This document shows, one piece after another, positions 5,613 to 33,162 of a DNA stretch of 36,790 nt (positions within the stretch are counted from its first letter, which is position 1; each line of letters starts with the position of its first letter). The position numbers and the translations under genes are program-made. The notes beneath the pieces were generated by a model, which saw only the letters and a program-made list of their open reading frames with translations, did no database searches and was not told the origin of the DNA. This DNA comes from Rhodospirillaceae bacterium (GTDB taxonomy: Bacteria; Pseudomonadota; Alphaproteobacteria; JAEULC01). The DNA lies in the NCBI GenBank assembly GCA_023266845.1, contig JAHFPH010000019.1, positions 1 to 36,790 on the forward strand, written 5' to 3'.

Positions 5613-5730
5613 GAAAAGTAACCACAGAGACACAGAGACACAGGGAGAAACGTGGATATGCGCGGCCCGGGGGCCGCGCGTGAGAACCGTCTTCTCGGCG
5701 CCTCTGTGTCTCTGTGGTGAATCTTTTCTA
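5613..5730 (-). repeat. composite palindromic intergenic element, copy A (CACAGAG arms)
   Basis: Between convergent pgi and eda. The left arm AAAAGTAACCACAGAGACAC and the right arm, whose complement reads AAAAGATTCACCACAGAGAC, pair over about 25-30 bases. Both arms consist of repeated CACAGAGA units. A second, inner GC hairpin, GCGCGGCC-CGGG-GGCCGCGC, occupies 5660-5679. The right end coincides with the TAG stop of eda (5728-5730). Compared with copies B and C this copy is inverted. It could act as a bidirectional terminator and RNA end for both genes, but lacks a canonical T-run. Confidence 0.85.
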
Positions 5731-22121: not shown

Positions 22122-24395
22122 TCAGCCCTTGCGCGCCCAGAACTGGTACATGTGGATGAACGCGGCGGGGTTGTCCGCTTCGAACGCTTCCCAATTGTCG
22201 AGCGAGAGCAGGGCCTGATCGTCTGGGAACCGCGCGCGATAGGCCGCCTCGGTCGCCGGATTCCACAGCTCGAATCCCAGGAAACGAAGGCCCAGCCGGT
22301 CGAGGCAGGATTTTATTTCCAGTGGCGTGAAGACGTGTTCCTGCACGTGGAACAGCAGGTCGCGGCATGTGCTGAGATTGTAGAAATCGGCCGCCGTCAC
22401 GCCGGTGAGCGCCGCGCCCGCTTCGCCCGCCATGATCGCTTGGCGCGCTTGCCGGATGCACTTTGGCGTGGCGGGAATGCCGCGTTCCCTGATGAATTGC
22501 TGGACGCGCGTGATGTCGCGCCGGGCGCGCCGGCTGTAAAGGCCCAGGATCATGTGCCCGCCGGGCCGCAGCAGGTCCGTGAGCACCCGCCAGCCCGCGA
22601 GCGGATCGCGCAAGTGATGCAGCACGCCAGAGCATTCGATGAGGTCGAACCGCCGTCCCAGCGCGCTTAAAGCCAGAATATCGGCCTGGGCGTAGTCGAT
22701 ATCGGCGATACCCGCTTCGGCCGCGGTGCGCTTGGCATAGGCAAGGCTGGACAGGCTCAGGTCGACCGCCAGGATGCGCGAATTCTGGAAGCGGCGCAGC
22801 GTCTGGATCGACACGGCGCCCGTGCCGCAGCCCGCCACCAGGATCTCCGGACGTTCCGGCGACGCGGCGGGGGCGGGCGCATGCGGGAACAACTCGCGCA
22901 GCACCGCGTGGATCGGCTTGCCGTCGGCCGGGGCGGATTTGCGCCGCCAGCGCGGATAGGGGTTTTCCTCGTATTGCGCCCGGACATCCTGCGAAACCTT
23001 GTCGCCGATCCTGGTCAGGCGCTGAATTTCTTTTTTCAGCTCCGCTTCTTTTTTCGGTTCCGCGACCTGGCGCTCGATCAGCGCTCTGAGCTCCGCATCC
23101 GTCGGCGGAGCGAAATCGAATCGATGCAACGGCTCATAGGCGCCGATCACCGCAATGGAGGCTGGCGACGCCGATGCGCTGCGCCGCGCCAATTCGTCCA
23201 CCTGCCGTCGTTCCTCGTCGGTTTCGGTCCAGACGTAGTCGTTGGCGAAGCATTGCAGGGCGAGAGCGCCGGCGAAACGAAGCATGGGCTTTTCTTCCAG
23301 CGCCCGGTGCGCCCGCGACGCCAGCGACAGCAGCACGCGCCGCAAGACCGTCAGCAGTTTTTCAAGCCGGTAATCCGTGACGATGGTTTCTTCCAAGACC
23401 GCGAGAAGCAGCGGTGCTTCGGTCAGCGGCTTCAGCCCGCCGTTTTCGATCAACTCTTCCAGCCGCCGCGCGCATGAATCGGGATCGTCCGCCAGCGCCA
23501 AAAGCTCGCCCGCCAGCGGTTCGCGGCGGATCGCCCGGACGGCGACGCGTTCGGCGTTCTGCGGGTCGAGATTTCCCCGCGTCAGCGCGGTCGGCAGCAG
23601 CGGCAGGTACCGTTCGTCCAGCGCGTCGGCGTCGCGCAAATACTCCGAGAACGCGACCCAGGCCGCGTCATGGGACGGCATTAGCCCGATCGCGCGGGCA
23701 TGGCAGGCCGCGGCCGCGTGCGGCCTGCCCAGCTTCTTCAACGTGTTGCCCAGGTTGAAATGCGCGTCGGCGAAGCCGGGCGCAAGCTCGATCGCGCGGC
23801 GATGGCTGTCCGCCGCCTCCGCGTAGCGACGCAGATCGTGCAGCACGGCGCCCCGGTTGCTCAGCGCCTCGACCGAATCGGGCTTGATCGACAGTGCGCG
23901 GTCGTAACTCGCCAGCGCCTCGTCGCGGCGCCCCAGCTCGTTTAGCGCGTTGCCGCGGTTGCTCCAGGCCTCGGCGTAGCCCGGCTTGGCCGCCAGCGCC
24001 CGGTCGAAGCTTTCCAGCGCCTCGTCCCGGCGTTTCATTTCCTGCAGGGTCACGCCGCGGCTGATCCAGGCGTCGGCCGCGTCGTCGCCCAACGCCAGCG
24101 CCCGGTCGAACGCGGCCAACGCCTCGCCGCCGCGCTTCAGTTCCCGCAACACGTTGCCGTGGTTCAGATGCGCCGCGCCGGATTTCGGGTCGATGGTGAC
24201 CGCCCGGCCCAGAAACAAGGCGGCCGCAGCGAAATTGCGGCGCTGCGCTTCCAGCACACCCAAGAGGTGCAGCGCGTGGAAATTCGCCGCGCTGGCCGCG
24301 AGAACCTGCCGGTAGAGAGCCTCGGCCCGGGCAAGATCGCCCTGGCGATGCGCCGCGACCGCCTCGGCGAGGATTTTATCGAGCGCGCTGGTCAC
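22122..24395 (-). CDS. TPR-repeat protein with C-terminal SAM-dependent methyltransferase domain
   Basis: A 757-residue fusion. Residues 1-245 are about seven TPR units, seen in repeats such as ALAAFDRALALGDDAADAW, ALESFDRALAAKPGYAEAW and ALASYDRALSIKPDSVEAL. Residues ~250-470 are a helical linker with a charged coiled section PKKEAELKKEIQ. The recognisable VRAQYEENPYPRWRR (~471-485) precedes a class I methyltransferase: ILVAGCGTGAVSIQ (~518-531) binds SAM, AVDLSLSSLAYAKRTAAEAG is the acidic second strand, and LIECSGVLHHLRDP (~585-598) is motif IV-like. This TPR-methyltransferase architecture, with QYEENPYPRW, is widespread in Alphaproteobacteria. Substrate unknown; probably protein or glycan related. 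Fifteen bases separate it from secA upstream. Confidence 0.9.
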   Translation of the reverse strand: MTSALDKILAEAVAAHRQGDLARAEALYRQVLAASAANFHALHLLGVLEAQRRNFAAAALFLGRAVTIDPKSGAAHLNHGNVLRELKRGGEALAAFDRALALGDDAADAWISRGVTLQEMKRRDEALESFDRALAAKPGYAEAWSNRGNALNELGRRDEALASYDRALSIKPDSVEALSNRGAVLHDLRRYAEAADSHRRAIELAPGFADAHFNLGNTLKKLGRPHAAAACHARAIGLMPSHDAAWVAFSEYLRDADALDERYLPLLPTALTRGNLDPQNAERVAVRAIRREPLAGELLALADDPDSCARRLEELIENGGLKPLTEAPLLLAVLEETIVTDYRLEKLLTVLRRVLLSLASRAHRALEEKPMLRFAGALALQCFANDYVWTETDEERRQVDELARRSASASPASIAVIGAYEPLHRFDFAPPTDAELRALIERQVAEPKKEAELKKEIQRLTRIGDKVSQDVRAQYEENPYPRWRRKSAPADGKPIHAVLRELFPHAPAPAASPERPEILVAGCGTGAVSIQTLRRFQNSRILAVDLSLSSLAYAKRTAAEAGIADIDYAQADILALSALGRRFDLIECSGVLHHLRDPLAGWRVLTDLLRPGGHMILGLYSRRARRDITRVQQFIRERGIPATPKCIRQARQAIMAGEAGAALTGVTAADFYNLSTCRDLLFHVQEHVFTPLEIKSCLDRLGLRFLGFELWNPATEAAYRARFPDDQALLSLDNWEAFEADNPAAFIHMYQFWARKG

Positions 24396-30608: not shown

Positions 30609-30718
30609 AAAATTCACCACAGAGACACAGAGATGCCGAGAGAAAATGATTTTCGCGGCCCTAGGCCGCAACCAATTTCCTCTGTGCCTCAGTGTCTCTG
30701 TGGTTGCTTACTTTTTCA
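30606..30718 (+). repeat. composite palindromic intergenic element, copy B (CACAGAG arms)
   Basis: Between the convergent GNAT-MutT gene and the cytochrome c gene. The left end reads TAGAAAATTCACCACAGAGA and the right end, on the complement, AAAAAGTAAGCAACCACAGA. The arms pair over ~25 bases around an inner GCGGCC-CTA-GGCCGC hairpin at 30655-30669. The left end supplies the TAG stop of the fusion gene, and the right end contains the TAA stop and last Lys codons of the cytochrome gene. Copy A, read on its complement, matches this order including GCCGAGA inside the left arm. Confidence 0.85.
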
Positions 30719-31985: not shown

Positions 31986-32750
31986 ATGGACGCGGCGGCC
32001 ACATTCCTGTCATTGGCGCGCGGCGCCGGACGGCGGGTGCTGGACGTGCTGCTGCCGCCGCGCTGCCTTTCCTGCGGCGCGGTGGTGGAAGAACCGGGCG
32101 CGCTGTGCGCTCCGTGCTGGGGGCGGCTCGGATTCATCGCGCCGCCGATCTGCGCGCGCTGCGGCCTGGCCTTCGAGCTGCCCCCGCAAGAGGGGGAGCT
32201 GGAATGCGCGCCCTGCATGGCCGCGCCGCCGCGCTACGATCGCGCCCGCGCGGCGCTGGCCTATGACGAGAACGTCAAATCGCTGGTGCTGCGCTTCAAG
32301 CATGCCGACGCCACCCATTCGGCACCCGGTTTCGCGCGCTGGATGGCGCGCGCGGGCGGCGACATGGCGGCTGAATGTGACCTGATCGCGCCGGTGCCGC
32401 TGCATCGCTGGCGCCTGCTGTGGCGGCGCTACAACCAGGCGGCGCTGCTGGCCCTGGCACTCGGGCGGCACGCGGACAAGCCGGTTGTGCCCGACCTTCT
32501 GGTGCGCAAGCGCGCGACGCCGTCGCAAGGGCGCCTGGGTCCCGCGCAGCGCCGTGCCAACGTCGCCGGCGCTTTTGCGTTGCGGCCGCGCCATGCCGGG
32601 CGGGTCGAGGGTTTTCGCGTGCTGCTGATCGACGATGTTTTGACCACGGGTGCCACGGCCGAGGAATGCGCCAAAGCGCTGAAGCGCGCCGGGGCCAAGG
32701 CGGTCGACGTGCTGACCCTGGCGCGGGTCAACCGTCCGCGCGCCGCTTAG
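31986..32750 (+). CDS. comF: ComF family phosphoribosyltransferase-like protein
   Basis: A 254-residue protein with an N-terminal zinc-ribbon region of cysteine pairs (RCLSCGAVVEEPGALCAPCW, then ICARCGLAF and ECAPCMA) and a C-terminal PRTase fold with the PRPP loop VLLIDDVLTTGATAEECAKA. The middle segment RWRLLWRRYNQAALLALALG is typical of the family. In transformable bacteria ComF aids DNA uptake; in Alphaproteobacteria the role is less certain. It starts at 31986 with 70 bases between its ATG and the divergent methyltransferase, and ends at a TAG that is the edge of palindromic element C. grxC follows, a common alphaproteobacterial pair. Confidence 0.9.
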   Translation: MDAAATFLSLARGAGRRVLDVLLPPRCLSCGAVVEEPGALCAPCWGRLGFIAPPICARCGLAFELPPQEGELECAPCMAAPPRYDRARAALAYDENVKSLVLRFKHADATHSAPGFARWMARAGGDMAAECDLIAPVPLHRWRLLWRRYNQAALLALALGRHADKPVVPDLLVRKRATPSQGRLGPAQRRANVAGAFALRPRHAGRVEGFRVLLIDDVLTTGATAEECAKALKRAGAKAVDVLTLARVNRPRAA

Positions 32751-32856
32751 ATTCAAGATTCGACCACCAAGTCACTAAGACGCCAAGGTCTGAAAATTCG
32801 CGGTCACCGGCCGCATCGAAATCTTCTTGGTGCCTTGGTGTCTTGGTGGTTTCTTC
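32748..32856 (+). repeat. composite palindromic intergenic element, copy C (CCAAG arms)
   Basis: Between comF and grxC. The left arm GATTCGACCACCAAGTCACT and the right arm, on the complement AAGAAACCACCAAGACACCA, pair over about 30 bases. Each arm is a 9-base-period series of CACCAAG/GCCAAGG-like units. The inner hairpin GCGGTC-ACC-GGCCGC (one G-T pair) occupies 32800-32814. The core and end layout match copies A and B, but the arm unit is CCAAG-type. The left end begins at the comF TAG stop (32748-32750). Because comF and grxC share orientation, the element would be transcribed between them. Confidence 0.8.
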
Positions 32857-32898
32857 CGGCCCCTGGAATTGCAGGTGCGGCTGAGGCAAGATGCCCGC

Positions 32899-33162
32899 AT
32901 GGCCAAGGTCGAGATCTACACCTCGTGCTTTTGCGGCTTCTGCGCGCGCGCCAAGGCGCTTCTGAACCGCAAGGGCGTGAAATACGAAGAGATCGACGTC
33001 ATGGAGCATCCCGGCAAGCGCGAGGAGATGCGTCGGCGCGCGGGCGGGCGCAACACCGTGCCGCAGATCTTCATCGACGGCGTGCCTGTCGGCGGCAGCG
33101 ACGACCTTCAGGCGCTGGAATCCGCGGGCAAGCTCGATCCGATGCTGGCCGGGAAGACTTAA
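32899..33162 (+). CDS. grxC: glutaredoxin 3 with CGFC active site
   Basis: An 87-residue glutathione-dependent thiol-disulfide oxidoreductase of the GrxC type. The start MAKVEIYTS at 32899 is preferred over the track start at 32827, which lies inside repeat C. Family motifs are intact: the cis-Pro loop NTVPQIFIDGVPVGGSDDLQ and the N-terminal strand VEIYT. The active site reads SCFCGFCARAK, so the usual CPYC is replaced by CGFC and an extra Cys lies two residues before. CGFS is typical of monothiol, iron-sulfur-binding glutaredoxins. GAGG upstream is the likely ribosome site, spaced rather far (12 bases). Glutathione-binding residues downstream look normal. Confidence 0.92.
   Translation: MAKVEIYTSCFCGFCARAKALLNRKGVKYEEIDVMEHPGKREEMRRRAGGRNTVPQIFIDGVPVGGSDDLQALESAGKLDPMLAGKT

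Follow-up and report, generated by a model that had tools for sequence, protein, structure and literature searches.

What kind of element is the short palindrome that separates comF and grxC, and is it unique to this locus? In the window, that is, the whole stretch of 36,790 nucleotides analysed, three related palindromes (elements A, B and C) are found, and element C, an 88-bp non-coding palindrome at 32763-32850, is the one located between these two genes. The comF-like gene (31986-32750, plus strand; Pfam DZR_2 and Pribosyltran) and the grxC-like glutaredoxin gene (32899-33162, plus strand; Pfam Glutaredoxin, 1.3e-22) are co-directional. The Pfam matches of the flanking ORFs agree with the placement proposed from the letters alone. 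The left arm of element C is separated from the comF stop codon by 12 nt, and 48 nt lie between the element and grxC. The sequence-only reading had assigned 32748-32856 to the element, which is real, although the interval was slightly too wide, 32748-32750 being the comF stop codon; the R1 covariance model matched 32762-32851.

Architecture of element C and its sister copies

The letters and an inverted-repeat scan revealed a left arm at 32763-32787 (ACCACCAAG-T-CACTAAG-A-CGCCAAG, with the units CACCAAG, CACTAAG and CGCCAAG) and a right arm at 32826-32850 (CTTGGTG-C-CTTGGTG-T-CTTGGTGGT, three units in inverse orientation), which are complementary at 21 of 25 positions. Each arm thus consists of three C-R-C-N-R-A-G units with one-base spacing, and between the arms lies a GC core hairpin (GCGGTC-ACC-GGCCGC, 32800-32814) with one T.G pair. 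Folded as DNA, element C gave a z score of -3.9, and none of 200 dinucleotide shuffles was equally good; with the same number of shuffles, elements A and B reached -7.9 and -6.8, respectively. Element A (5620-5719) is located between the convergent pgi and KDPG aldolase genes, while element B (30615-30705) has a GNAT/NUDIX gene on one side and a convergent cytochrome c gene on the other. In both, CACAGAG arms enclose the GC core seen in element C, and the earlier claim that element C keeps this core with a different arm family was borne out by direct reading and by the inverted-repeat scan.

No Rfam family matched at gathering score anywhere in the window. A search for an intrinsic terminator at element C found a GC hairpin but no U-tract and no terminator-like site; the readings of the element as a terminator or as a sigma-70 promoter were both rejected, neither signal being found, and any effect of element C on grxC is putative. 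Elsewhere in the window, the minus strand of 23683-24148 contains direct repeats spaced 102 nt (34 codons) apart and probably encodes a tetratricopeptide-type repeat protein.

The source genome (G000) holds about 16 related hairpins in total, about 10 of them CCAAG-armed and about 6 CACAGAG-armed, and most share the GC core of elements A, B and C. The sequence-only reading had made its case depend on CCAAG copies existing elsewhere, and about 10 more matches were indeed recovered in G000, along with about 4 further CACAGAG copies. The covariance model placed about 16 sites in G000; the congeners G001 and G003 had about 30 and about 19, respectively, G002 had one, and most of the other families tested gave few sites or none. 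In G000 itself (94.7% complete), neither a GxxExxY gene (no TIGR04256 match) nor a four-helix-bundle gene was detected.

GxxExxY genes inside inverted arms

Examination of the congeners showed where such genes occur (neighbour names were read from translations). In G001, one GxxExxY gene is enclosed by CACAGAG arms and adjoins carA, another is enclosed by CGCGGAG arms, and a further one stands directly beside a CACGAAG hairpin in the trpF-trpB interval. In G003, CCAAG arms flank a GxxExxY gene on both sides, and therefore element C has gene-bearing kin of the same arm type in its genus. Both congeners also hold many non-coding hairpins with the arm types of the gene-bearing elements, and comparison of these sequences establishes that arm types are common to coding and non-coding copies within the genus.

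A scan of the genome collection provided at least 80 GxxExxY loci, 77 of which had usable flanks. When inverted arms were required to score above 99% of dinucleotide shuffles, 61 of the 77 genes were bracketed, as compared to 1 of 137 control placements in which this geometry was moved by 1.2 kb; among the matches listed, the arms bracketing these genes came from at least about 18 phyla, archaea included, and the median element span was about 496 bp. Each arm is an array of about three units, which follow the tandem pattern CRCNRA[G/T] with a spacing of 8, 9 or 10; of 97 arm pairs, 84 have units that read outside-in and 2 the reverse. On this sequence evidence the arm-gene-arm architecture is established. 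Element C likewise has a pair of inverted arms built from tandem CRCNRA[G/T] units that read outside-in, and is classed solely as a non-coding derivative of the GxxExxY-arm elements, having no such gene between its arms. The kinship with CACAGAG and CCAAG repeats near GxxExxY and four-helix-bundle genes of other phyla, which the sequence-only reading had suggested, was confirmed, and in a stronger form than first put, since these genes are enclosed by the arms.

In a survey of 299 genomes of the phylum with a motif for non-coding hairpins, these were found in 35 of the 56 genomes that have GxxExxY and in 15 of the 243 that lack it, a contrast inflated by relatedness; within the richest family the corresponding numbers were 33 of 45 and 12 of 29 (p 0.006). 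A control motif with the pattern reversed was found in 0 of the 299 genomes. Plasmid or phage cargo was rejected as a reading of the elements, with 7 plasmid matches and no phage match. The open literature searched, which covers a minority of preprints and no subscription journals, contained no published description of these elements, which is weak evidence; there, GxxExxY appeared in unrelated contexts, and queries with PF13366, the family accessions and the arm strings returned nothing relevant.

The GxxExxY protein (TIGR04256) corresponds to PF13366 (PDDEXK_3), of the PD-(D/E)XK nuclease family. Its invariant residues are E29, D69, E79-x-K81 and Q93xxxY97, which form the residue set of RecB/Cas4-type nucleases, and the presence of the D, E-x-K and QxxxY motifs in the fold places it in the RecB/Cas4-like part of the PD-(D/E)XK group. 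The AlphaFold model (pLDDT 94.8) had its best PDB match in SSO0001, of the Cas4 family (prob 1.0, E 1.4e-3), followed by lambda exonuclease and the homing endonuclease I-Bth0305I (E-values 1e-3 to 3e-2 overall). A defence-system reading was rejected, PADLOC giving only weak Cas4 similarity.

The arm units were further compared with the proteins of 89 elements (116 columns), in whose tree many forks are not resolved, so that the counts of changes are approximate. Unit position 5 required 12 changes on the tree against 29.8 in shuffles, and position 7 required 2 against 7.8 (0/300 in each case). Between phyla, elements sharing the letter at position 5 or 7 had more similar proteins (within-phylum permutation p <= 0.0005), while the letter at position 2 (A/G) did not track protein likeness between phyla. 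Arm-protein co-variation is therefore present in these alignments; it is consistent with a GxxExxY protein that recognises the arms, and it could instead reflect co-inheritance of the unit.

The same plan was found for four-helix-bundle genes (PF05635, 23S rRNA IVS protein), 27 of 34 of which lie between inverted arrays of 7-bp units (control 2 of 65). The heptamers around these genes (L058-L061 and L271-L300) include GTGAGTA, GGCAGTA, GCGAATG and GAGGGAT.

Arm pairing, site occupancy and nesting

The sequence-only reading held that the two arms had changed in a concerted way, as expected if they must pair. The first part stands between the subfamilies of G000, where C-G/A-T and A-T/G-C columns covary; the need for pairing is not supported. 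In these subfamilies, 28 cells were altered on both sides versus 15.9 in shuffles, an excess that is largely one subfamily split counted repeatedly, and the compensatory-change test that had been proposed yielded few clearly independent cases, namely column pair 6-99 in one copy and pair 47-57, in the core, in another. Unit-by-unit concordance of the arms in G000 was 0.50 versus 0.375, which is not significant (p 0.16). In miniatures of other genomes, picked by a motif that does not require matching arms, left and right units matched at 0.41, versus 0.43 between arms taken from separate copies of one genome; as the agreement is no better, hybrid ends exist. Strict arm pairing was rejected, hybrid-arm copies being common in other genomes, and selection for RNA pairing was rejected by the comparison of G.U with A.C, the arm differences of gene-bearing elements showing no G.U preference in the gene-sense strand (100 G.U versus 127 A.C). 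Given the hybrid ends, we think that each arm is maintained as a recognition array, with pairing at most secondary.

These results bear on a reading at the RNA level, in which the transcribed arms would pair and be cut by RNase III or another nuclease, element C would process or attenuate the comF-grxC transcript, and the encoded proteins would bind the RNA hairpin. The strong folding of the palindromes and the position of element C within a co-directional gene pair are in its favor, as are the 23S rRNA intervening sequences, which RNase III cleaves at their terminal 28-bp stems, which carry S23p and in which tandem heptamers precede the ORF (PMC4990558), and the S23p-family genes with the same arm architecture. 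The missing G.U preference, the frequency of hybrid arms, the location of A and B between convergent genes and the absence of a U-tract terminator all speak against it, and we consider it improbable.

Comparison of orthologous sites revealed presence/absence differences. The comF-grxC site lacks element C in G001 and G003, and the element A site is empty in G001, leaving only a few bases between two convergent stop codons; in these comparisons the species are about 75-90% identical, and loss may account for some sites. At the pyrB-pyrC junction of another genus (the gene names are our reading), the site is empty in four genomes, two have a CGCARAG hairpin there, and three have a CACGAAG element that includes a GxxExxY gene. 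In one genome (L083:1206-1910 of G223), the pyrB-pyrC GxxExxY element is present as a tandem duplicate, with scraps of the pyrC start and the pyrB end between the copies. No clear target-site duplication was seen at any site inspected, the relatives being too diverged; a 6-base BLAST overlap at pyrB-pyrC was rejected as one because ATGA repeats in the stop and start codons.

One orthologous intergenic site carries different elements in two genomes, CCAAG-armed in G000 and CACAGAG-armed in G001 (L005 versus L232), and the element A junction is occupied in G002 (L266) by a CCAAG element. Different elements at the same site would point either to re-used insertion sites or to arm exchange. The shared occupancy of pyrB-pyrC and of L005/L232, together with the I-Bth0305I and Cas4 fold matches, would also suit a homing or gene-drive-like process, in which a selfish nuclease would cleave alleles that lack the element or bear other arms, recombination would copy it, and the arms would mark self. 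Elements dispersed over so many unrelated sites are not expected from pure homing, which makes this account decidedly improbable.

Nesting was observed in G000, where contig C150 holds a CCAAG palindrome within the core of a CACAGAG element, and in G003, where CACGACG elements lie within CCAAG elements. The nested composites of G003 occur as dispersed copies with 91-94% identity that differ by whole right-arm units. Four-level nests in this genome (L255, L261 and L252) place, from outside inwards, a CCACGGCTGTCC palindrome, a CCCTCCCC palindrome, CCAAG and CACGACG. CCAAG elements also lie in the loops of unrelated palindromes, of the types CCGTCACGG...CATCCACG and CCCTCCCC, in G000 (L009; C127:2384-2548) and in G002 (L266), which suggests loop-targeted insertion.

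Several copies, element C included, start about 8-13 bases past a stop codon by a crude ORF test. Such positions would agree with arms kept as host or regulatory sites (protein binding, nucleoid or mRNA-end hairpins) on which GxxExxY genes merely landed. Bracketing in at least about 18 phyla, together with the arm-protein co-variation, is hard to obtain by chance landing, and the copies are not conserved among congeners, which leaves this reading very improbable.

Proposed origin and comparison with known systems

Element C is best explained, in our view with a fair degree of probability, as a non-coding, MITE-like and non-autonomous member of a class of arm-GxxExxY-arm palindromes, for which nuclease-driven mobility is proposed. 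We infer that the GxxExxY nuclease is the mobilising enzyme, and its chemistry likewise; the protein might be a passenger or a regulator instead. Under the proposed mechanism, the element-borne nuclease would recognise the units of each arm as element ends and would cut or nick there once the palindrome becomes single-stranded or extruded, which would drive copying or movement of the element. Intergenic points just past stop codons and the loops of other palindromes would be the preferred targets. Miniature members lack the gene and retain the arms, in many cases around a GC-rich core; the gene-less copies would have been moved in trans or be relics.

A wider reading, which we put forward tentatively and hold to be somewhat short of probable, is that GxxExxY proteins mobilise an undescribed pan-prokaryotic class of chromosomal transposable palindromes, which would rely on a PD-(D/E)XK nuclease and on ends made of tandem units, and that the four-helix-bundle/IVS proteins form a sister class. 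As that class has the same architecture, the 23S rRNA IVSs would be its rRNA-landed members. Both protein groups are common annotations of 'unknown function', to which the arm-element context gives a testable role, and inverted-arm elements would explain the dispersed CACAGAG/CCAAG-type intergenic repeats of many phyla.

REP sequences are small palindromes scattered over the chromosome and linked to an enzyme of their own (RAYT), and their gene-less copies outnumber the gene-bearing ones. The class of element C resembles REPs and REPINs in being short, dispersed palindromes tied to an enzyme, whereas no GTAG motif is found at element C (32748-32860), the enzyme is a PD-(D/E)XK nuclease rather than a Y1 HUH transposase, and the gene sits inside the palindrome. 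As in MITEs, element C is short and multi-copy and shares its terminal inverted repeats with gene-bearing elements of the genus; unlike MITEs, no target-site duplication was seen, the ends are tandem arrays and hybrid ends occur. To our knowledge, the gene-bearing form has no DDE transposase. The multicopy palindromes of Geobacter are likewise dispersed intergenic families as presented in the main texts (PMC2700814; PMC2996986), and the few sequences printed there do not match the class of element C.

The 23S rRNA IVS is also a small element with terminal inverted repeats that can pair into a long stem enclosing a single small ORF, and that of Coxiella carries tandem heptamers (PMC4990558). 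In contrast, element C is intergenic (comF-grxC), contains no ORF and does not lie in a 23S rRNA helix, and it has 8-bp CRCNRAG units and coding kin that carry a PD-(D/E)XK nuclease. The inverted-arm context of the two protein groups may also be relevant to the long-standing question of how 23S rRNA intervening sequences arose.
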